NCBI GenBank assembly: GCA_000824785.1
Contig: CCNB01000012.1
Location: forward strand, 612,206 to 676,205
Length of the DNA stretch: 64,000 nt
Source: Mesorhizobium plurifarium
GTDB taxonomy: Bacteria > Pseudomonadota > Alphaproteobacteria > Rhizobiales > Rhizobiaceae
Direction of reading: 5' to 3'
Below are positions 6,419 through 63,914 of the stretch, in pieces. Within the stretch, counting starts at the first letter, position 1. The number at the start of each line of letters is the position of its first letter. The notes under the pieces are model-generated. The model did no database searches. It was not told the DNA's origin and saw only the letters and a program-made list of their open reading frames with translations. Made by a program: the position numbers and the translations under genes.

Positions 6419-7168
6419 TCAGGCGGCCAGGCGAGCGATCCGCTGCAGCCGCTTCAGCGTGGTGTCATCCTGAAGCGCCTGCTGGAACAGCGTGATCTCG
6501 TGGTCGATGCGGTCGCACAACACGTCCGTGTCGCCCTTGAGCAGGCTGCGCGTCTGCAGCAATGCCGTCACGGGTTTCTTGGCCAGCTGTTTCGCCCTCG
6601 CCAGCGTTGCTTCCTCGGCGCTGCCTTGCGTCACGATCTCGCCGACCAGGCCGAGCGCCTTGGCGTCCTCGGCGCCCAGCGTGTCGCCCAGGCAGAAGAA
6701 GCGGAAGGCGCCGGCATAGCCGAGCTTCTGGGGCGCCAGAATGCTGGTCGCCGCGTCCGGCACCAGGCCGAAATCGACGAACGGCACCCTGAAGGTGCTG
6801 CCCCTGGAGGCGATCACCATGTCGCAATGGAACAGGATGGTGCAGCCGACGCCGACAGCGTCGCCGTCGACACAGGCAAGGACCGGCTTGGGGAAGGTCG
6901 CCAACATGCGGAACATGTCGGTGACGGCGGCGATCAGCTCTCGGTGCTTGGTGGCGTCGAGGAACTCCGAGAAGTCGCCGCCAAGGCAGAAGCATCCGGC
7001 AAGGCCGCGCAGCATGACGACGCGGACCTCGTCATTGACCGCCGCCTCGTGGAAGGTCCTGGCAAGGCTCGCATAGGCATGCCTGTCGAGCACCGGCCTT
7101 CCGTCATGCGAGGACACCGTGACGACCAGCGTGTGGCCACGCAGTTCCGGTTCGGGATGGAAACTCAT
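6419..7168 (-). CDS. Crotonase-family enzyme linked to AHL synthase, probable enoyl-CoA isomerase type
   Basis: This 249-residue protein has the crotonase fold and would act on acyl-CoA in the cytoplasm. The oxyanion-hole parts are present (CFCLGGDF near residues 59-66 and DAVGVGC near 103-109). The two glutamates of hydratases are absent: Thr110 replaces the Glu of the usual GGGCE, and Phe130 replaces the Glu of the usual QPE. Asp138 in GLVPDAA sits where enoyl-CoA isomerases carry their acidic catalyst. The ATG at 7168 has GGAGGT just before it and lies 11 bases after the luxI stop, so both genes share a transcript. In Mesorhizobium a gene linked to a LuxI-type synthase is known to be needed for an unsaturated AHL signal; this gene fits that role. 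The exact reaction is inferred. Confidence 0.85.
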   Translation of the reverse strand: MSFHPEPELRGHTLVVTVSSHDGRPVLDRHAYASLARTFHEAAVNDEVRVVMLRGLAGCFCLGGDFSEFLDATKHRELIAAVTDMFRMLATFPKPVLACVDGDAVGVGCTILFHCDMVIASRGSTFRVPFVDFGLVPDAATSILAPQKLGYAGAFRFFCLGDTLGAEDAKALGLVGEIVTQGSAEEATLARAKQLAKKPVTALLQTRSLLKGDTDVLCDRIDHEITLFQQALQDDTTLKRLQRIARLAA

Positions 7169-7179
7169 GACCACCTCCA

Positions 7180-7818
7180 TCACGACGCCTGCTTCAGGCC
7201 GAGCTGACCGGGATAGCCCCGGTTCAGCACCGGCAGGAAGTGATTGCGGCGGGCTCGCACGACCTCGAGCGTATGCTCGGTGAAGGTGAGCAGCGTCGCC
7301 ACGACCTGCTGGTTGCCATAGGTGCGCTGGTAGCCGAGCGGCGTTGCCAGGAAATGCAGTTGCAGGGCTCTCAGCACCCACATCGGCTCGAACTCGATAA
7401 TGACCTGGTTGACGTTGCGCTTCAGGCCCCATTCGACGAAGCCGGCGATCAGCTCGGTGCCGACCGTCGAGACGCCGCGTTTGCCGTCGCGAAAACCCGG
7501 AGCCACAGCGTAGCGGGTGAGTTCCCAGACATTCGGCCCCGAGGGGGACGGACCCTCGCAGAGATCCGACAGCACGTCGGTCAGAAGATGCGGCCGTGTG
7601 GTCGGCAGCATGCGTTGGTAACCTGCCAGTTCGCCGTTGCGGATGACGAGGTGATGCTCGGCCTCGTCATGATCGAACTGATCGATCTCGAGCTGGTCCG
7701 GACGATCGAGATCGGTCCATCCCATCTCCTCGACGAAGATCTTGTAGCGCAGGCGATGAACCGCCTCCCAAAGGTCGGGACGTTCCATCAATTCCTGAGT
7801 GGTAAGGGCGAAAAGCAT
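7180..7818 (-). CDS. Acyl-homoserine-lactone synthase, LuxI family
   Basis: The enzyme makes an N-acyl-homoserine lactone from S-adenosylmethionine and an acyl donor. The 212 residues carry the family landmarks: Arg24, Phe28 and Trp34 in LRYKIFVEEMGW, acidic residues at 46 and 50 in DQFDHDEAEHH, Arg69 in GYQRMLPTTRPHLL, and WELTRYAVAPGFR. The AGGAG upstream supports the ATG at 7818. Gene order luxR-luxI-crotonase matches the three-component circuit described in Mesorhizobium, whose synthase clusters with acyl-CoA-dependent LuxI proteins; CoA use is therefore likely but not visible directly. A palindrome 80-102 bases upstream is a likely LuxR-type operator. Confidence 0.94.
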   Translation of the reverse strand: MLFALTTQELMERPDLWEAVHRLRYKIFVEEMGWTDLDRPDQLEIDQFDHDEAEHHLVIRNGELAGYQRMLPTTRPHLLTDVLSDLCEGPSPSGPNVWELTRYAVAPGFRDGKRGVSTVGTELIAGFVEWGLKRNVNQVIIEFEPMWVLRALQLHFLATPLGYQRTYGNQQVVATLLTFTEHTLEVVRARRNHFLPVLNRGYPGQLGLKQAS

Positions 7819-7897
7819 TAGCCGTCTCCTAGGCTTAAGAGGAAGATACGGCCGTGATGTCCCTTAAAATATTGCGCGACTGCGCAGGCAAGAATTT

Positions 7898-7920
7898 CTA
7901 GGTCGGCACGGCCGACCTAG
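7898..7920. promoter_or_regulatory. Perfect palindrome upstream of luxI, candidate lux-box
   Basis: CTAGGTCGGC (7898-7907), three bases, then GCCGACCTAG (7911-7920) form a perfect inverted repeat. Its centre is 91 bases before the luxI start and it contains the stop codon of luxR. Position and size fit an operator for the LuxR-type protein. There is no T-run after it on the minus strand, which argues against a luxR terminator. Confidence 0.6.
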
Positions 7921-8648
7921 CTAATATAGCCACGCCTAATCGCCTCCGCGACTGCCTGCACGCGGTTGGCCGCGCCCAGTTTGCTCTTGGCGTTAAGAAG
8001 ATGTTTCTCGGAAGTGTGTTCCGAGATGCCTAAAATTTGAGATATCTCCCATTCGGACTTGCCGACGGCTGCCCATTGCAGGCATTCCCGCTCGCGCGCC
8101 GTCAATTCTATGTGATCGATGACGCCGTCGGCCTTGGTGTGCAACTGCATCGCGCGACCGATCGCGTAGGTCGATGCCAGCGAGACCATCCCAAATTCCT
8201 GATCCGACAGCTCGACGGATTCGCCGCCCAGCGAGACCATGACGATCTGGCCGTCGAGCGTGACCAGCGGAAGCGCCAGGCCGTCGCGCAACTTGAACTC
8301 GCGAGCGTCGCCCATGACTTCGTCGCTGCTTTTGTCGATCACGCTGCTTTTGGAAGCATCCCGCCATTGGAACGGCGCCTGAAGCTGCTTCATATGGCTG
8401 ACCACCGGATCGTGGTCGACATAGTTGCGCGCCACATAGCGCTCCAGCCAATTGCCTGGCCAATCGCAAAGCAACACGTGTTGTTTCTGCTGGCCACGCG
8501 GCGTGCCCGGCTGCGGCACCGTTCCCGCCATCAGCGCGGTCAGGCCGAAATTCGAGGTGACGCCGAGCAGCCTCTCGCAAACCGCGGCCGCGGTGCCGGC
8601 ATGCTGCAACTGGTCTATGTATTCCAGAGTTCTGTCGAACAGGCCCAT
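7917..8648 (-). CDS. LuxR-family AHL-responsive transcription regulator
   Basis: This 243-residue regulator has an N-terminal autoinducer-binding domain (about residues 20-160, with the conserved DWPGNWLERYVARNYVDHDPV block whose Trp, Tyr and Asp residues line the ligand pocket in the family) and a C-terminal GerE-type helix-turn-helix (LTARERECLQWAAVGKSEWEI, then ISEHTSEKHLLNAKSKL). It is transcribed with luxI in the same direction. It would bind the local AHL and switch on luxI and the crotonase. The stop codon lies inside the candidate operator, so coding and control sequence overlap. Confidence 0.94.
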   Translation of the reverse strand: MGLFDRTLEYIDQLQHAGTAAAVCERLLGVTSNFGLTALMAGTVPQPGTPRGQQKQHVLLCDWPGNWLERYVARNYVDHDPVVSHMKQLQAPFQWRDASKSSVIDKSSDEVMGDAREFKLRDGLALPLVTLDGQIVMVSLGGESVELSDQEFGMVSLASTYAIGRAMQLHTKADGVIDHIELTARERECLQWAAVGKSEWEISQILGISEHTSEKHLLNAKSKLGAANRVQAVAEAIRRGYIS

Positions 8649-14484: not shown

Positions 14485-16704
14485 TCAGGCCGCCTCTCTT
14501 ACCTCGCCCTTCTGGTAAGGATCGAAGCGCTGGTAGAAGGTCTCGCCCTTCTCGGCCATATCGAGCAGAAGCTTCGGCGCCTTGAATTCGGCGCCATATT
14601 TCTTCTGCAGGCCCTTGGCGATCTTAACGAAGCGCTTGGCGCCGATGCCGTCGATGTAGGACAGGGCGCCGCCGGTGAAGGGCGCGAAGCCAAAGGCGAG
14701 GATCGAGCCGACATCGGCCTCGCGCGGATCGGTGACGATGCCTTCTTCCATCACGCGCGCCGCTTCCAGCGCGATGGTGACCAGCAGGCGCTGCTTCAGT
14801 TCCTCATAGTCGACCTTTTCGGGCCTCAACTGCGGGTAGAGATCTTTCAGGCCCGGCCACAGCTTCTTCTTCGCGGGCTTGGCCGGATAGTCGTAGAAAC
14901 CCTTGCCGTTCTTGCGGCCGAAGCGGCCATGCGTGTCGACCATGGTGTTGATCAGCGCCATCTGCTTCGGATCGACCGCCTTGTCGCCAAGATCCCTGAT
15001 GGTCTGCTTCATGATCTTCTGGGCAAGGTCGACGGCCGTCTCGTCGGTCAGCGCGAGCGGACCGACCGGCATGCCGGCGGCCTTGGCGGCGTTCTCGATC
15101 ATCGGCGCCGGAACGCCCTCGATCAGCATCTTGTAGGCTTCCGACATGTAGCGCAGCACGCAGCGGTTGACGTAGAAGCCGCGCGTGTCGTTGACGACGA
15201 TCGGCGTCTTCTTGATGGCGCGCACGAAGTCGAACGCGACGGCCAAGGCCTTGTCGCCGGTCTTCTTGCCGAGGATGATCTCGACCAGCATCATCTTGTC
15301 GACCGGTGAGAAGAAGTGGATGCCGATGAAGTTCCTCGGCCGCGCCGAATTCTTCGCCAGCGCCGTGATGGGAATCGTCGAGGTGTTGGAAGCGAAGATC
15401 GCCGACGACTTCAGCACCGCTTCTGACTTCTCGGTGGCGTCCTTCTTCACGCCCGAATCCTCGAAGACCGCCTCGACGACGAGGTCGCAGCCGGCAAGGT
15501 CGGCATAGTCCGCCGTCGGGGTGATCAGCGACAGGAGCTTGTCCTTGTCTTCCGGCTTGGCGCGGCCCTTCTTGACCTGATCGGCCATCAGGCTGTCGGA
15601 ATGCGCCTTGCCCTTCTCGGCCGATGGCAGGTCGCGGTCGAGCAGCACCACCGGAATGCCGGCTTTTGCCGTGACATAGGCGATGCCGGCGCCCATGAAG
15701 CCGGCGCCGAGAATGCCGATCTTCTTGAACTTGGTCTCCGGCACGTCGGCCGGGCGGCGCGCGCCCTTGTTCAGCTCCTGCAGTGACAGAAACAGCGAGC
15801 GGATCATCGCCGCCGCTTCCTTCGATTGCATGATCTCGGTGAAATAGCGCTGCTCGATCCGGAGCGCGGTATCGAACGGCACCAGCAGGCCTTCATAGAC
15901 GCACTTCAGGATCGCGGCGGCGGCTGGGTAATTGCCGTAGGTTTCGCGGCGCAGGATGGCGATGGCCGGTGGCCAGAGATTGGCGCCGGCGGCCGAATAG
16001 ATCGGGCCGCCCGGCAGCTTGAAGCCCTTCTCGTCCCAAGGCGCCACCGGCTTCAGGCCGTTTTTGATCATCGCCTTGGCGGTCTCGACAAGCTTTTTCG
16101 GCTCCGCGATCTCATGGATCAGGCCCATCGCCTTCGCCTTTTGCGGCGTCAGGTTCTGGCCGGAGGTCAGCATCTGCAGCGCCTGCTGCTGATCGGTCAG
16201 CCGCGGCACGCGCTGGGTGCCGCCGGCGCCGGGGAAGATGCCGATCTTCACCTCGGGCAGCGCCATCTTCACCTTGTCGCTGTCGGCGGCGACACGGCCA
16301 TGGCAGGCGAGCGACATCTCGAAGGCGCCGCCCATGCAGGTGCCGTTGATCGCCGACACCCAAGGCTTGCCGGAAGTTTCGATCTTGCGGAACAGGCCGG
16401 TCATGTAACCGGCATTCTCGAACAACGCCCTGGTCGCCTTGTCGAGGTCCTTCTCCTTGTCGGCGGCGAAGGTCGCCAGCATCTTCTGCAGCATGGTGAT
16501 GTCGGCGCCGCCGGAGAAGGAGTCCTTGCCGGAGGTAATGACCACACCCTTGATGGCGGCATCGGCGATCACCTTCTCGACGATGGCGTTCAACTCGCGC
16601 ATCACCTCCTCGGTGAAGACATTCATCGAGCGGTCCGGCATGTTCCAGGTGACCAGAGCAATGCCGTCGGCGTCCACGTCGAGGGTGAAATTGGTGTAGC
16701 TCAT
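14485..16704 (-). CDS. fadB: Multifunctional fatty-acid oxidation enzyme (enoyl-CoA hydratase / 3-hydroxyacyl-CoA dehydrogenase)
   Basis: The enzyme hydrates trans-2-enoyl-CoA and oxidises the 3-hydroxyacyl-CoA product with NAD. The 739 residues hold an N-terminal crotonase domain with [22 protein letters not shown] and a canonical [17 protein letters not shown], then a Rossmann domain from the dinucleotide motif [10 protein letters not shown] near residue 331, and C-terminal dehydrogenase domains with [14 protein letters not shown] and [12 protein letters not shown]. It could equally be called fadJ. GGGAGAG precedes the ATG. Thirteen bases separate it from the thiolase gene upstream, so the pair resembles the FadAB complex. 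Confidence 0.95.
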
Positions 16705-16717
16705 CTTCTTCTCTCCC

Positions 16718-17926
16718 TCAGACGCGTTCGATGATGGTGGCGGTGCCCATGCCGGCGCCGATGCAGAGCGTGACCAGCGCGGTGTTCAAGTCGCGGCGCT
16801 CCAGCTCGTCCAGCACCGTGCCCAGGATCATCGCGCCGGTGGCGCCCAGCGGATGGCCCATGGCGATGGCGCCGCCATTGACGTTGATCCTGTCATGCGG
16901 GATGTCGAAGGCCTGCATGTAGCGCAGCACGACGGAGGCGAAGGCCTCGTTGAGCTCGAACAGGTCGATGTCCGACAGCTTCATCTTGGCGCGCTTCAGA
17001 AGCTTCTCGGTGACGTCGACCGGGCCGGTCAGCATCAGCACCGGTTCGGAACCGATATTGGCAAAGGCGCGGATGCGCGCGCGGGGCCTCAGCCCCATCG
17101 CCTTGCCGGCCTTCTTGGAGCCCAGCAGCACGGCGGCGGCGCCATCGACGATGCCCGACGAATTGCCGGCGTGATGGACGTGGTTGACCTCCTCGACCTC
17201 CGGATGCTTCTGCACGGCGACCGCGTCGAAGCCGCCCATCTCGCCTGGCATGACGAAGGATGGATTGAGCGAGGCGAGCGACTGCATGTCAGTCGAAGGC
17301 CGCATGTGCTCGTCATGGTCGAGAATGGTGAGACCGTTCTGGTCCTTGATCGGGATCACCGACTTCTTGAATCGCCCCTCATCCCAAGCCTTGGCGGCGC
17401 GCTTCTGGCTCTCGACGGCATAGGCGTCGACGTCGTCACGGGAAAACCCGTATTTGGTGGCGATCAGGTCGGCCGAGATGCCCTGCGGCACGAACCAGCC
17501 GGGCAGGCCGACCGAGGGATCCATGAACCAGGCGCCGCCGGACATGCCCATGCCGACGCGCGACATCGATTCGACGCCGCCGGCGATGACGATCTCATCC
17601 GCGCCTTGCGCGATCTTGGCGGCGCCGAAATTGATGGCGTCGAGACCCGAGGCGCAGAAGCGCGAGATCTGCATGCCGGGCGCTTTGGTGTCGTAGCCGG
17701 CCTCGAAGGCGGCGGCGCGCGGAATGACCGCGCCCGCCTCGCCGACGGGATCGACGCAACCGAAGATGATGTCGTCGACAGTGCCGGTGTCGAGCCCGTT
17801 GCGGTCGCGCAGCGCCTCGAGCGTCTTCGCGGCGAGCCGCACCGCCGGCACCTCATGCAGCGCGCCATCCTTCTTGCCCCTGCCGCGCGGCGTGCGCACG
17901 GTGTCGTAGACGTAAGCCTCAGTCAT
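16718..17926 (-). CDS. fadA: Acetyl-CoA C-acyltransferase (thiolase)
   Basis: This thiolase cleaves 3-ketoacyl-CoA with CoA in the last beta-oxidation step. The 402 residues carry the acyl-accepting Cys91 in [13 protein letters not shown], the block [18 protein letters not shown] with its catalytic His, and the C-terminal [13 protein letters not shown] with the second catalytic Cys. It lies between the acyl-CoA dehydrogenase and fadB-type genes on the same strand, which favours a degradative rather than a biosynthetic thiolase. Confidence 0.94.
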
Positions 17927-17959
17927 TTTCGTGCTCCTTGGCTTTGCCGGCCGCGGCGC

Positions 17960-19129
17960 TCAGAGAGAGCGCCCGATCAGCAATTTCATGATCTCGTTGG
18001 TGCCGCCGTAGATGCGCTGGACGCGGGCGTCGCGGTACATGCGGGCGATCGGATATTCATTCATGTAGCCATAGCCGCCATGCAGTTGAAGGCATTCGTC
18101 GACGACTTTGCCCTGCAGGTCGCTGAGCCAGTATTTGGCCATCGAGGCGGTCACCGGATCGAGGCCGCCATCGATGTGGCGGGCGACGCAATCATTGTAG
18201 AAGACGCGGCCGATGGTGGCCTCGGTCTTCAGCTCGGCCAGCTTGAACTGGGTGTTCTGGAAATCGATGACCGCCTTGCCGAAGGCCTTGCGTTCCTTGA
18301 CGTAGTCGACGGTGAGCGCCAGCGCCCGCTCGATCATGGCGATCGCCCCGGTGCCGATCTGCAGGCGCTCCTGCGGCAGTTGCTGCATCAGCTGGACGAA
18401 GCCCTTGCCCTCCTCGTGACCGAGCAGGTTGGAGGTCGGCACGCGCACGTCGTTGAAGAACAGCTCGGAGGTGTCGTTCGACTTCAGCCCTATCTTGTCG
18501 AGGTTGCGGCCGCGCTGAAAACCTTCGACCTCGTCGGTCTCGACGACGATCAGCGAGGTGCCCTTGGCGCCCTTGTCCGGATCGGTCTTGGTGACGACGA
18601 TGATCAGGTTGGCGAGCTGGCCGTTGGTGATGAAAGTCTTCGAGCCGCTGATCTTATAGTGGTTGCCATCCTTCTCGGCGCGGGTCTTCACGCCCTGCAG
18701 GTCGGAGCCGGCGCCGGGCTCCGTCATGGCGATGGCGCCGATCAGCTCACCGGTCGCGAGCTTGGGCAGCCATTTCTGCTTCTGCTCCTCGGAGCCGTAG
18801 TGGAGGATGTAAGGTGCTACGATCGAATTGTGCAGGCCGATGCCGAAACCGTCGACGCCGACATGGCCGATCGCCTCGATGATGGCGCTCTCATGCGCGA
18901 AGGTGCCGCCTGAGCCGCCATATTCCTCCGGCATCGAAGCGCAGAGCAGGCCCGCCGCTCCGGCCTTCAGCCAGCTCTCGCGGTCGAAGATCTCGTTCTT
19001 CTCGAACTCGTCGTAACGCGGCGCGATCTCTTCCGCCATGAAGCGGGATGCCATGTCGTAGAGCATGCCAACCTCGTCCGCCGCCCATGCGGGCTTCGGC
19101 AGGCCAAGAATTTCGGCTGGATTTGTCAT
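17960..19129 (-). CDS. Acyl-CoA dehydrogenase
   Basis: This FAD enzyme introduces the trans-2 double bond into acyl-CoA and passes electrons to ETF. The 389-residue protein has the family signatures AMTEPGAGSDLQGVKTRAEKDG, the FITNGQLANLIIVVTKT flavin region, and the C-terminal RIYGGTNEIMKLLIGRSL. The start ATG overlaps the stop of the DUF559 gene in the form ATGA, and GGAGGAA is its ribosome site. It is part of the fad unit. Confidence 0.94.
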   Translation of the reverse strand: MTNPAEILGLPKPAWAADEVGMLYDMASRFMAEEIAPRYDEFEKNEIFDRESWLKAGAAGLLCASMPEEYGGSGGTFAHESAIIEAIGHVGVDGFGIGLHNSIVAPYILHYGSEEQKQKWLPKLATGELIGAIAMTEPGAGSDLQGVKTRAEKDGNHYKISGSKTFITNGQLANLIIVVTKTDPDKGAKGTSLIVVETDEVEGFQRGRNLDKIGLKSNDTSELFFNDVRVPTSNLLGHEEGKGFVQLMQQLPQERLQIGTGAIAMIERALALTVDYVKERKAFGKAVIDFQNTQFKLAELKTEATIGRVFYNDCVARHIDGGLDPVTASMAKYWLSDLQGKVVDECLQLHGGYGYMNEYPIARMYRDARVQRIYGGTNEIMKLLIGRSL

Positions 19130-19569
19130 GCTATTTCCTCCGTGGCGCCGGCGTCCCCCTCCCCCTTGAGGGGAGGGTGGCCGCGAAGCGGTCGGGAGGG
19201 GTCGCCCGCGACGCGCTCGGCCTCACCTTTGACAAACTGTGCAACGTGCCAGGCGCTATTGATAACATCCGGCTCGTCGATCCTGAGCACGACGTAGCCA
19301 AGCGACTGCAAATAAGAGTCGCGATTCAAATCATGACGCTTGCCAGCCTCGGTTTCGTGCAGGTCGCCGTCGACCTCCACAATGAGTTTGACCGACGGAC
19401 AAACGAAATCGACAACGTACGGCCCGATCGGCGACTGCCGCCTGAATTTCAGGCCATCCGCCTTCAGTTCCCGCAATTCGTACCACAGCAAGGACTCCGC
19501 CTTCGTCGCATGGAGACGAAGCGAGCGAGCCTTCTGCCGCATCTCGAAACTGACTCGCGTGCGGGGCAT
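19126..19569 (-). CDS. DUF559 endonuclease-like protein between inverted repeats
   Basis: The 147-residue protein belongs to the DUF559 family, whose fold is like very-short-patch repair and restriction endonucleases. The core is visible: VVDFVCPSVKLIVEVDGDLHE, with Asp54, Glu65, Asp67 and His71 as candidate metal-site residues, and a terminal LGYVVLRIDEPDVINSAWHVAQFV. No function has been proved that I know of. I chose the ATG at 19569 because AGGAGGAGG precedes it. The last 20 or so residues (HPPLKGEGDAG region) are read from the flanking repeat, and the stop overlaps the next gene as ATGA. Copies of this gene type inside metabolic operons suggest insertion. Confidence 0.85.
   Translation of the reverse strand: MPRTRVSFEMRQKARSLRLHATKAESLLWYELRELKADGLKFRRQSPIGPYVVDFVCPSVKLIVEVDGDLHETEAGKRHDLNRDSYLQSLGYVVLRIDEPDVINSAWHVAQFVKGEAERVAGDPSRPLRGHPPLKGEGDAGATEEIA
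19151..19212. repeat. Inverted repeat flanking the DUF559 gene, 3' side copy
   Basis: This 62-base element begins GCGTCCCCCTCCCCCTTGAG and ends GGGGTCGCCCGCGAC. Its reverse complement matches 19620-19685 almost throughout. An internal hairpin CCGC-GAA-GCGG replaces the longer CCAGAC-GAA-GTCTGG hairpin of the other copy (both read on this strand), so pairing is kept although the sequence differs. It encodes the C-terminal tail of the DUF559 protein. Confidence 0.85.
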
Positions 19570-19619
19570 TGCGGTGGTCCTCCTCCTAGCGCACATCCGT
19601 CAAAATTGGTGTCGAGATC

Positions 19620-19685
19620 GTCGCGGGCGACCCCACCCGACCAGACTTCGTCTGGCCACCCTCCCCTCAAGGGGGAGGGGGACGC
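19620..19685. repeat. Inverted repeat flanking the DUF559 gene, 5' side copy
   Basis: This 66-base element is the inverted partner of 19151-19212. It begins GTCGCGGGCGACCCCACCCG, carries the hairpin CCAGAC-TTC-GTCTGG, and ends CAAGGGGGAGGGGGACGC. It starts about 50 bases before the DUF559 start codon and lies nine bases past the fadE stop. Confidence 0.85.
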
Positions 19686-19694
19686 CGAGCATTT

Positions 19695-21491
19695 CTAGAA
19701 CGCTTCCGCCGGCAGCGCCATTAGCGTGTCCGCGCCACTGGAAATGCGGGCAAGCCGCGTCGCCGTTTCGGGCATGATGCGCTCCATGAAGAAACGCGCC
19801 GTCACCAGCTTGGTGTCGTAGAACGACGCCGAACCATTGGCGCCTTCCGCGAGCTTCGCCTGGGCGGATTTCGCCATCTGCGCCCACATATAGCCCAGCG
19901 CCACAAGACCGAAGAGATGCATATAGTCGGTCGAGGCGGCCCCGGCGTTGTCGGGCTTGGCCATGGCGTTCTGCACCAGCCACATGGTGGCCGCCTGCAG
20001 GTCGTTGAGGCCCTTCTTCAGCGCCTTGGTGAAGGTCGCCATCTTCTCGTCGGCGCGGTTTTCCTCGCAGAACTCGCCGACCTCCTTGAAGAAGGCCTGC
20101 ACGGCGCGGCCGCCATTCTGCGCCAGCTTGCGGCCGACGAGGTCCAGCGCCTGGATGCCGTTGGCGCCTTCATAGATCATGGCGATGCGGGCATCGCGCA
20201 CGAACTGGCTCATGCCGTGCTCTTCGATATAGCCGTGGCCGCCGAACACCTGCTGGGCCATCACCGCGTGGTCGAAGCCCTTGTCGGTGAGCACGCCCTT
20301 GACCACCGGCGTCATAAGGCCGGTGTAGTCGTCGGCCGCCTGGCGGTCCTTGTCGTCACCGGAGCGATGCGCGACATCGGACTTGATCGCCGTCCACAGC
20401 GCCAGCGCCCGCCCGCCCTCGTTGAACGCCTTCATAGTCATCAGCGAGCGGCGGATGTCGGGATGGACGATGATCGGGTCGGCCTTCTTGTCCGGCGCCT
20501 TGGCGCCCGACAGCGAACGGCCCTGCAGCCGGTCCTTGGCGTAGGAAACCGCGTTCTGATAGGCGATCTCGGAGACCGAAAGCCCCTGCAGGCCGACGCC
20601 GAGGCGGGCCTCGTTCATCATTGTGAACATGGCCTTCAGGCCGCCGTTCAATTCGCCGAGCAACGTGCCCTCGGCCTCGTCATAGTTCATGACGCAGGTC
20701 GAGTTGCCGTGGATGCCCATCTTCTCCTCGATCGAGCCGCAGGAGAGCGTGTTGCGCTCACCGGGATTGCCCGAGGCGTCGAGCTTGAACTTCGGCACGA
20801 TGAACAGCGAGATGCCCTTCACGCCTTCCGGCGCGCCCTCGGCGCGGGCAAGCACCAGGTGGACGATGTTGTCCGACATGTCGTGCTCGCCGGCGGAGAT
20901 GAATATCTTCTGGCCGGAAATCCTGTAGGTGCCGTCGCCGTTGGGAACGGCCTTGGTGCGCAGCAGGCCGAGATCGGTGCCGCAGTGCGGCTCGGTGAGG
21001 TTCATGGTGCCGGTCCAGGCGCCCTCGATCAGCTTTGGCAGCCAGGTCGCCTTCTGCTCGTCCGTGCCGTGGGTGACGATCGCCGCGATCGCGCCTTGCG
21101 TCAGGCCCGGATACATCATCAGCGCCATGTTGGCGGAGACCATATATTCGGAGACCGCGGTGTGGACCGTGTAAGGCAGACCCTGGCCGCCGAACTCGGC
21201 GGGTGCCGCCAACCCCATCCAGCCGCCCTCGCGGTACTGGTCGAAGGCGTCCTTGAAGCCCTTGGGCGTGGTCACCGAGCCGTCGTCATGGCGCACGCAG
21301 CCTTCCATGTCGCCGATGCGGTTCAACGGATGCATGACGTTCTCGGCAAGCTTCGCGCCTTCGGCGAGGATCGCCTCGACCACATCGGGCGTGGCGTCCG
21401 AGAAGCCTGGAAGATTGGAATAGCGCTGATAACCCAGCACATCGTTGAGCACGAACAGCGTGTCCTGGATCGGCGCCCTGTAGATCGTCAT
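19695..21491 (-). CDS. fadE: Long acyl-CoA dehydrogenase (FadE-like)
   Basis: The 598-residue enzyme oxidises acyl-CoA to enoyl-CoA with FAD. Signatures include [19 protein letters not shown], the [12 protein letters not shown] flavin block, and [33 protein letters not shown], whose late glutamate is typical for the catalytic base region. The extra C-terminal domain is common in this long subfamily from Proteobacteria. The ATG at 21491 has GGAGGAAGG upstream; the frame extends to 21626 but without family support. It is the first gene of the fad unit and has an operator-like palindrome about 100 bases ahead of it. Confidence 0.93.
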
Positions 21492-21589
21492 GCCTTCCTC
21501 CGCCCTTACGGTCCCGGCCCGACCAGCAAGTCGCCTGTCCACGTCCTGGACAGGAGGCCGGGCCAACGTCGATGCTGCGATAGCAAATA

Positions 21590-21611
21590 TTGACGTTTGC
21601 GTAAACGTCAA
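21590..21611. promoter_or_regulatory. Perfect palindromic operator upstream of fadE
   Basis: TTGACGTTT (21590-21598), GCGT, then AAACGTCAA (21603-21611) make a perfect inverted repeat, 99-120 bases before the fadE start. A related sequence lies in front of the neighbouring merR gene. It resembles sites used by MerR-family lipid or branched-chain amino-acid catabolism regulators (LiuR type), so the merR product is the likely binder. Confidence 0.65.
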
Positions 21612-21656
21612 CTTCGTCGCAGCCAAAAATTTTTGTGAGCGTCAGGCATTGTGGCG

Positions 21657-61583: not shown

Positions 61584-62366
61584 GTTTGCCGGCAAGTACT
61601 TAAAAAGTTTGCTCGTGAGCTGCACTTGTGAGGCGATTCCAATGCCGGTAATGTTTTGCCGGCATATACAGCGTCGCTTATATCTGCGCGCCTTCGCCGC
61701 AGCGGCCGCCCAAATTCCCCTGTCAGAAAATCCACTTTGTTTTCAGCGACTTACAAGCGGTCATCCACAGCTTGTTCAACGCACAGTCGAGCAGCAGGGC
61801 AGAAGTAGCTGTCAAGAGAATTATTTCAGAATATTTCGTTTCAGGCGGCCTTTTTCATATTCGCCGGAAAAGGGTTTGAATCACAATGGCTTTGTCAAAA
61901 CGGGCCGTCCCGATAGCCGATTTCAAGCCCCTTTCGGTAACCAGATTCGTTAAAAAACCGTTAGATGTGGCCTTGCCCTATCCACAGCGATTTCGGTAAT
62001 GTCCATCCATCGAAGGGACGGGCTCTAGCCCCCTGACCCAGCCTGAATCGGCCAGCAAAAAATGGCGGAATTCATGACGTGGAGCAATTCCGCGTGCGGC
62101 TTGGTTTGTCTCTTCGGTGCGGGTAGGGGACTGGCGTAATTGTACATGGCAGTCGATGTCTCACCGGCGTTTTCGCCGGAGGGCGATGCATTGCCTTGTC
62201 TTTGTCGGAAGCCGGCGTGCGGAGCCGGCAGCTGGTCCCTTGCGCGAGTTGCGACGACGTTGCCGGCGGCGGCAATGAATCGCGGCTGAATGAGGTCGCC
62301 GGATCAAGGATGCAGGAGGCGCATCCCCGGTGGAAAAAGGGTACGATAAGACAAGGGACTTTGATC
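61584..62366. promoter_or_regulatory. Long dnaA upstream region with DnaA-box-like and GANTC sites
   Basis: No convincing gene lies in this stretch, which forms most of the 840-base rpsT-dnaA interval. DnaA-box-like sequences are TCATCCACA (61762-61770) and CTATCCACA (61978-61986), each one base from TTATCCACA. GANTC sites occur at 61635, 61878, 61944, 62045 and 62277. A small stem, GCGGAATT/AATTCCGC (62065-62093), recalls the dispersed palindromic repeat arms. The region probably controls dnaA; an origin role is not supported by only two imperfect boxes. Confidence 0.55.
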
Positions 62367-63914
62367 ATGCAAAGCGGCATCGAGAGGGAGATAGCGGGCG
62401 AGCTCCCATTTCCGGCAACTTTTGTCAAAGGGGGCGACGTGGCGGTGTCCAACGACGCGGAACAGAAGTTCGAACGCGTTAAGGCTCAGCTGAAGGCGCG
62501 TCTTGGAGCCGAGGTCTATTCGAGCTGGTTCGGTCGCATGAAGGTCGCCGAGGCCTCCCGCGGCATTGTGCGCATCTCCGTGCCTACGGCCTTCCTGCGG
62601 TCCTGGATCAACGGCCATTACCTCGAGCTCATCGCGGAGCTGTGGCGGCATGAGGATCCGGACGTCCTCAAGATCGAGATCGTCGTGCGCACCGCCACGC
62701 GCCAGGGGCGCAACCCTGTCGAGCCGGAGGTGGCGCCAGCGCGCAAGATGACCAAGCAGACGCATACCGCGCTCGCCAACGGCACCGCGAGCGCCGGGCG
62801 CGCGGAACAACGGGCGCCGGCGCCGCGCCCGGGCGCGTCCGCGGAACCGGAGTTTCGCCACAATGTGCTGGGGTCGCCTCTCGACCCGCGCTACACTTTC
62901 GCCTCCTTCATCGAAGGACCGTCGAACAGGGTTGCCTTCGCCGCGGCCAGGGCGGTGGCGGAATCTCAGTCGAGCGCGGTGCGTTTCAACCCGCTTTTCC
63001 TGCATGCGACCGTCGGGCTCGGCAAGACGCACCTGCTGCAGGCGATCGCGGCGGAATCGCTACGGCACAACCCGAAGTCGCGCGTCGTCTACCTGACCGC
63101 GGAATATTTCATGTGGCGCTTCGCCACCGCGATCCGCGACAACAATGCGCTGACGCTGAAAGAGCAGCTGCGCGACATCGATCTCCTGATCATCGACGAC
63201 ATGCAGTTCCTGCAGGGCAAGTCGATCCAGCACGAATTCTGCCACCTCATCAACATGCTGCTCGACAGCGCCAAACAGGTCGTGGTCGCGGCCGACCGGC
63301 CGCCGTCGGAACTGGAATCGCTGGAGCCGCGCGTGCGTTCGCGACTGAATGGAGGCGTGGCGCTGGAAATGTCGGCGCCTGATTTCGCCATGCGGCTCGG
63401 CATGCTGAAGCTGCGCCGCGCCACCGCCAAGACCGATGACACCTCGCTCGACATCTCCGACGAAATCCTGGAGCACGTCGCGCGCACGGTGACCGGCAGC
63501 GGGCGTGAGCTCGAAGGCGCCTTCAACCAGCTTCTGTTCCGCCAGTCGTTCGAGCCGCAGATCTCCATCGACCGTATCGACGAGATCCTCGGTCACATCT
63601 ACCGCTCCGGCGAGCCGAAGCGGGTGCGCATCGAGGACATCCAGCGCATCGTGGCGCGTCACTACAACGTGTCGAAGACGGAGCTTCTGTCCAACCGGCG
63701 CACGCGCACGATCGTCAAGCCGCGGCAGGTGGCGATGTATCTGTCGAAGGTGATGACGCCGCGCTCATTGCCGGAGATCGGACGGCGCTTCGGCGGCCGC
63801 GATCACACGACGGTGCTCCATGCCGTGCGTAAGATCGAGGACCTTTCGGGCGCGGACAACACGCTGGCGCAGGAACTCGAACTGCTCAGAAGGCTGATCA
63901 ACGACCAGGCCTGA
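62367..63914 (+). CDS. dnaA: Chromosomal replication initiator protein DnaA
   Basis: The 515-residue initiator has the N-terminal DnaB/DiaA-binding domain ([26 protein letters not shown]), a variable linker, the AAA+ core with Walker [17 protein letters not shown] and Walker [14 protein letters not shown], the arginine-finger region, and the C-terminal DNA-binding domain with the signature [19 protein letters not shown]. Walker A has VGLGKTH, the variant common in this group. I chose the ATG at 62367, with AAGGGA upstream, although the frame is open from 62196. Confidence 0.97.

Follow-up and report, generated by a model that had tools for sequence, protein, structure and literature searches.

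How does a crotonase encoded beside a quorum-sensing pair contribute to the acyl-homoserine lactone (AHL) signal? The question is raised by a luxR-luxI-crotonase trio of the root-nodule bacterium Mesorhizobium plurifarium, located on a 64,000-nucleotide stretch of contig CCNB01000012.1 (hereafter the window). All three genes lie on the minus strand: luxR (7917-8648) encodes an AHL-responsive regulator of the R1 type (243 residues; Pfam Autoind_bind, 7.7e-25, and GerE, 1.7e-16), luxI (7180-7818) an AHL synthase of the I1 type, predicted to use acyl-coenzyme A (acyl-CoA) substrates (212 residues; Autoind_synth, 4.4e-16), and the third gene (6419-7168) a 249-residue crotonase (ECH_1, 2.2e-34) predicted to be a one-acid double-bond isomerase. 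These Pfam matches all exceed the family cut-offs. The luxI stop and the crotonase start are 11 nucleotides apart (7169-7179), and the coordinates, shared strand and gap given in an earlier, sequence-only reading of this DNA proved exact. A mechanical list of open reading frames (ORFs) opens the crotonase frame earlier, at 7432 within luxI (337 residues); we take the ATG at 7168 as the start because it is preceded by a good ribosome-binding site, GGAGGTGG, and is also backed by homologues. As set out below, comparison with characterized enzymes supports a crotonase site of the one-acid isomerase type, at the level of active-site class, and in our working model, to which we assign a probability of about 0.57, the enzyme converts 2E,5Z-dodecadienoyl-CoA (2E,5Z-C12:2-CoA), or the 3,5-diene formed from it, to 2E,4E-C12:2-CoA for use by LuxI.

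Judged by gene families and layout, the trio is the Mesorhizobium R1-I1-crotonase quorum-sensing circuit, which has already been published. In M. japonicum, the R1-I1-mlr5639 circuit yields 2E,4E-C12:2-homoserine lactone (2E,4E-C12:2-HSL) (Suo et al. 2023; PMC10470506). The signal, the roles of R1 and I1 and the requirement for the crotonase gene were shown experimentally there: the mlr5639 mutant makes little AHL and a plasmid copy brings the signal back (PMC10470506). The authors leave the mode of action of the linked crotonase open, and no later paper on the crotonase mechanism was found in the literature searched, which was mostly without subscription papers and preprints. The M. japonicum genes mlr5637-mlr5639 and those of the window belong to the same three families in the same order and direction, luxI and the crotonase gene nearly touch in both (gaps of 8 bp and 11 bp, respectively), and each has an inverted repeat about 61 nucleotides before luxI, though the short one of the window may be due to chance; no difference of kind is seen by families and gene layout. 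The sequence-only reading had invoked a known Mesorhizobium circuit as a parallel; the system was the right one, but the window carries that circuit rather than merely resembling it. Of nearly 500 Mesorhizobium genomes, about 90% are reported to have R1-I1 homologues, and Nitratireductor and Methylopila are reported to have the trio as well (PMC10470506). In our own sample the window's genus is represented by 37 genomes, that of the window counted; 32 have a crotonase orthologue of at least 83% identity, and none was found in the other 5 (G005, G006, G008, G013 and G024). The circuit itself being known, what is new here is the residue evidence, the single clade with Asp and Glu types and an argument about the substrate from n-7 and n-8 double-bond positions.

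The residue evidence comes from a joint alignment with characterized crotonases. At positions 110, 130 and 138 (minus-strand codons 6839-6841, 6779-6781 and 6755-6757) the window crotonase has Thr/Phe/Asp, as does E. coli PaaG, a 1,2-epoxyphenylacetyl-CoA isomerase with delta3,delta2-enoyl-CoA isomerase activity. The same positions are Glu/Glu/Gly in E. coli PaaF, in E. coli FadB and in the window's own FadJ-like protein. Thus, Thr110 and Phe130 do stand where hydratases carry their first and second glutamates, and Asp138, the predicted catalytic base/acid, is indeed placed like the acid of PaaG, as had been proposed from the sequence. The E. coli PaaG aspartate aligns with residue 136 (counted by eye) of the Thermus structure 3hrx, named PaaG (PMC4498308), and Asp136 of Thermus PaaG is catalytic, shuttling a proton between C2 and C4 (PMC7497051). 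The spacing of the three positions (20, then 8 residues) matches D177/E197/D205 of human ECH1, whose listed catalytic residues are I118, D177, E197 and D205 (PMC10709515), as well as E126/E146/C154 of the crotonase DspI. According to the DspI paper, two glutamates distinguish hydratases and bifunctional enzymes from monofunctional isomerases (PMC5834635). We rejected an enoyl-CoA hydratase reading, since Thr110 and Phe130 replace the two glutamates 20 residues apart. With one acid at the third position and none at the hydratase positions, the site is that of a one-acid enoyl-CoA isomerase (ECI/PaaG-like).

The trio and these residues are conserved well beyond the window. In the 80 of 117 confirmed relatives that underlie our locus counts, LuxI adjoins the crotonase in 80/80, with an estimated gap of -4 to 70 nucleotides, and LuxR is also present in 78, the remaining 2 being clipped by contig ends; because of this constancy, the association of the genes is not due to chance. 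Named genera with the trio include Mesorhizobium, Nitratireductor and Aquibium. Together with 47 further sequences and the window, these loci give 128 crotonases, 101 of them distinct when identical ones are counted once, and Thr110, Phe130 and Asp138 are invariant in 101/101. Invariance alone is weak evidence, as 87 of the 249 crotonase columns are equally invariant in this set; the search patterns for relatives included residue 130 and excluded 110 and 138. When all distinct LuxI-linked sequences are considered, Thr and Phe at 110 and 130 are accompanied by an acid at 138 in 110/110 (101 Asp, 9 Glu). This bears on the idea that the crotonase acts indirectly, as a thioesterase, as a channeling partner for LuxI or by draining off competing acyl-CoAs. 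The slow growth of cells bearing the complementation plasmid (PMC10470506) would agree with such a role, but a mere scaffold would not need the acid that is kept at the catalytic place, and we consider an indirect role highly improbable. The crotonase could also be a hydratase/dehydratase that dehydrates a hydroxy-enoyl-CoA to the 2,4-diene, much as DspI is proposed to make the cis-2-decenoic acid signal by dehydration (PMC5834635); the closest solved relatives of the window crotonase do carry hydratase or hydratase/isomerase names. However, DspI depends on Glu126 and Glu146 (PMC5834635), at whose places all 101 distinct orthologues have Thr and Phe, which makes dehydration an improbable route.

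The likeness to PaaG holds for the active-site acid and does not extend to kinship. Membership of the PaaG family was rejected, the TIGR02280 score being 100.3 against a cut-off of 345.15, and PaaG falls outside the group of the window crotonase in our trees; its nearest kin is instead a Thr/Phe/Glu group of PRK06023-like proteins (100/99). PRK06023 (NF004681) is also its best NCBIfam match, though the 188.6 bits obtained fall short of the cut-off of 282, and the differences from this type are Asp for Glu at 138 and Gly or Ala for Asn64. The genome has a PRK06023 member of its own, above the cut-off at 430.2 bits, with Thr/Phe/Glu at the three positions; at 36% identity, no other crotonase of this genome is closer to the trio's, and its gene immediately follows one for an acyl-CoA dehydrogenase.

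The LuxI partner is probably an acyl-CoA user, as judged from its relatives. Of the solved structures it comes closest to 6wn0, a 4-coumaroyl-HSL synthase (3.4e-24), and 5w8a, which we take to be BjaI (7.8e-24), followed by 6wns (5e-23), 3p2f (3.6e-19), LasI 1ro5 (9.1e-16) and EsaI 1k4j (0.017). The R. palustris and B. japonicum AHL synthases are described as acyl-CoA users (PMC10470506). The published crotonase mutant would need a supplier of 2,4-dienoyl-CoA.

The probable precursor can be approached from the fatty acids of the cell. In three Mesorhizobium strains, 18:1 n-7/n-6 makes up 49-69% of the fatty acids (PMC11473501). By the arithmetic of beta-oxidation, three rounds on 18:1 n-7, or two on 16:1 n-7, lead to a C12 chain with a delta-5 double bond, while oleate has its delta-5 bond at C14. 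We compared nine unsaturated alphaproteobacterial AHLs with recorded bond positions (from PMC10470506 and PMC10790750): the distal bond is n-7 in all 8 of the others, and 2E,4E-C12:2 is n-8, one carbon shifted. This n-8 position is what one would expect for the circuit's AHL if 2E,5Z-C12:2-CoA shifts to 2E,4E. The working model starts from the main membrane fatty acid, 18:1 n-7 (16:1 n-7 is equivalent), whose beta-oxidation would reach 5Z-dodecenoyl-CoA, which an acyl-CoA dehydrogenase would convert to 2E,5Z-dodecadienoyl-CoA. The LuxI-linked crotonase, using the Asp138 carboxylate and the crotonase oxyanion hole, would then shift the distal double bond to give the conjugated 2E,4E-dodecadienoyl-CoA, either directly or via the 3,5-diene. 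LuxI would couple this product to S-adenosylmethionine to form 2E,4E-C12:2-HSL, and LuxR bound to the signal would switch on luxI and the crotonase gene. Isomerization of 2,5-dienoyl-CoA to the 3,5- and on to the 2,4-isomer is established chemistry, ECI being the enzyme named for the first step (PMC2697383); that the window crotonase has isomerase activity and takes this substrate and route is what we infer from its sequence.

The sequence-only reading had likewise proposed that a linked isomerase makes a 2,4-dienoyl-CoA for LuxI. The one-acid site, the lack of hydratase glutamates and the acyl-CoA-type LuxI speak for this proposal, but a plain C2-to-C4 shift is insufficient: on chemical grounds, such an isomerase cannot turn a 3-enoyl-CoA into a 2,4-diene. 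One acid could nevertheless be sufficient, again by chemical reasoning, as deprotonation of the 2,5-diene at C4 could give a trienolate that is reprotonated at C6. Several points weigh against the working model. A 2,4-diene requires 3,5-to-2,4 or 2,5-to-2,4 chemistry, with a proton placed onto C6, and the reach of Asp138 to C6 is the weak point of the model; PaaG, the characterized one-acid enzyme used for comparison, moves protons from C2 to C4. The enzyme that does produce 2,4-dienoyl-CoA, the product kind needed here, is the delta3,5-delta2,4-dienoyl-CoA isomerase ECH1/DCI. When the positions are mapped by spacing alone, its Asp205 falls on Asp138, the one listed ECH1 catalytic residue with an equivalent in the window crotonase; its two further acids are absent there, where Thr/Phe/Asp stands in place of Asp/Glu/Asp. 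In addition, the five nearest solved Thr/Phe/Glu relatives used bear hydratase or hydratase/isomerase names. An AlphaFold model of the crotonase has a mean confidence (pLDDT) of 72.8, with values below 50 at residues 62-64 and 130-151; it was discarded for active-site geometry given its low confidence in the active-site loop. An AHL of Nitrobacter, with a bond at 7,8 and acyl groups of 7-11 carbons, is not n-7 (PMC4786786), which means that the n-7 pattern does not hold everywhere. Finally, the genome encodes two further crotonases whose residues approach the ECH1 pattern, L087 with Glu/Glu/Asp and L098 with Gly/Glu/Asp, and a helper enzyme is thus possible.

Such a helper would be needed if the crotonase performs only the ordinary half-step, from 2E,5Z- to 3,5-dodecadienoyl-CoA, and a second enzyme makes the 2,4-diene. 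This division of labor would suit the C2/C4 proton shifts of one-acid enzymes of the PaaG type (PMC7497051) and the 2,5-to-3,5 reaction for which ECI is named (PMC2697383), and L087 and L098, with Glu and Asp at 130 and 138, are in principle candidates for the second enzyme. Yet E. coli already forms the 3,5-diene from about 10% of oleate without a dienoyl-CoA isomerase (PMC9329746), so a dedicated gene would be unneeded. Moreover, the genome has 14 other PF00378 proteins and none shows the full Asp/Glu/Asp set, although the alignment of divergent rows is less certain. L087 is nearest to crotonobetainyl-CoA hydratase, its best model at 311.3 bits (below the cut-off of 500), and was set aside as a dienoyl-CoA isomerase. 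A comparison of E. coli FadH, a 2,4-dienoyl-CoA reductase, with the genome gave seven matches of 29-36% identity, none spanning the whole of FadH. The Nitrobacter AHL, together with L087 and L098, led us to lower the figure for the working model from 0.60 to 0.57 and to raise slightly that for the half-step, which we regard as unlikely but not negligible.

We also asked how widely LuxI and crotonase are paired. The search for crotonases next to LuxI relied on similarity to two queries (E 1e-8), by which unrelated neighbors would escape notice. Among 297 genomes of the family, all 23 with a LuxI at least 72% identical to that of the window carry an adjoining crotonase, 18 of them outside its genus; in the same search, LuxIs at 43-51% identity adjoin a crotonase in 1 of 10 uncut cases (G219), an eleventh (G328) being cut by a contig end. 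A sequence first found as a crotonase relative (L182) belongs to a luxR-luxI-crotonase trio in another family. Searching 347 genomes of the order with its LuxI gave 29 places, spread over 26 genomes; a crotonase is linked to LuxI in 8 of the 20 places examined and missing from the other 12. Altogether nine LuxI-linked crotonases lie beyond the Mesorhizobium-type group, all nine with Thr/Phe/Glu; the first in-frame start falls 7-13 nucleotides past the luxI stop in 7 of these 9 pairs, the gap being 159 nucleotides for L182 and 189 for L053. Linked crotonases occur in five families (f1, f15, f22, f200 and f207) of the order, with a few lines lacking them. Some of the trios in this wider family may be the already reported Methylopila ones.

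Phylogenies were built from thinned rows (60 and 51 crotonases and 64 LuxIs) and midpoint-rooted for drawing only. The 51-crotonase tree omits nine trio rows and seven own-genome crotonases of the 60-row tree; most same-genus rows are absent from the LuxI tree, as are rows shorter than 130 residues or with stops (L065, for instance, is truncated where its contig ends). In the 60-row tree, the Mesorhizobium-type crotonases cluster together (100/99) within the larger Thr/Phe/Glu group (100/99), which is separate from PaaG and the hydratases. In the second crotonase tree, all 25 LuxI-linked crotonases form one group (100/100), with the Thr/Phe/Asp sequences as a subgroup (100/100). In the LuxI tree, all 32 crotonase-linked LuxIs fall into one group (100/98), together with three unlinked ones (L187, L189 and L196). 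Within the range searched, the LuxI-crotonase pairing would most simply have arisen once, and Asp138 would, by parsimony, most simply derive from Glu, in parallel with PaaG. A more tentative extension, which we hold to be possible though on balance doubtful, is that the LuxI-linked crotonases are an old clade of signal-tailoring isomerases in the order, and that in the Mesorhizobium-type subclade the change from Glu to Asp re-aimed the acid toward C4-to-C6 proton transfer, permitting a one-step conversion of 2E,5Z to 2E,4E without the extra ECH1 acids, with the Glu-type circuits making other unsaturated AHLs.

Some individual loci merit separate mention. L187 and L196 have no similar crotonase in the stretch examined, and their products would reveal whether the enzyme is dispensable there. 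In one genome (G739), LuxI is present in two nearly identical copies (L189 and L190) on separate contigs, with a crotonase behind one and none behind the other. The L053/L183 locus (G219:C8) pairs a divergent LuxI (48%) with a Thr/Phe/Glu crotonase (36%) across its 189-nucleotide gap; on visual inspection some of the ORFs nearby resemble transposases, and a similarity search of that stretch gave no LuxR. A search over the class with the L053 crotonase at E 1e-40 gave no match and is uninformative.

Upstream of luxI, the inverted repeat TGCGC-N4-GCGCA (7873-7886, minus strand), centered 61 nucleotides before the luxI start, is a weak candidate for a LuxR-binding site. Its 5-bp arms are short enough to arise by chance in a single sequence. 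Among 93 distinct upstream regions, a repeat with 6 or more of its 9 positions paired and its center within -66 to -56 occurs in 72, compared with 25 at the control, which comprised one other position only. The published M. japonicum orthologue has an inverted repeat centered 61.5 nucleotides before luxI (PMC10470506). A perfect 10-bp hairpin with a 3-nucleotide loop (7898-7920, minus strand) overlaps the luxR stop codon. In 56 of 129 upstream regions (duplicates counted), the top-ranking inverted repeat is a hairpin with its center between -87.5 and -90.5, and a conserved luxR terminator is possible.

Elsewhere in the window, a beta-oxidation cluster (14485-21626, minus strand) about 7 kb from the trio encodes a FadJ-like protein, a thiolase and two acyl-CoA dehydrogenase-like proteins. 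The FadJ-like gene lies 6.7-8.8 kb from the trio on the same strand in all 10 same-genus genomes checked (1-3 contigs each); we set this linkage aside as evidence, as shared chromosome order alone could explain it. The genome contains two further LuxI-type genes, on the same contig as each other (G000:C2:27202-27723 and 62171-62560). Comparison with a defence library gave no match.

These findings narrow the question left by the 2023 paper, namely what the crotonase contributes, to named substrates and one residue. If the working model is true, the signal would owe its specificity to a dedicated isomerase acting on an intermediate drawn from the beta-oxidation of the cell's own main fatty acid, and the presence or absence of the crotonase, together with its Asp or Glu type, might help to predict AHL structure from genomes.

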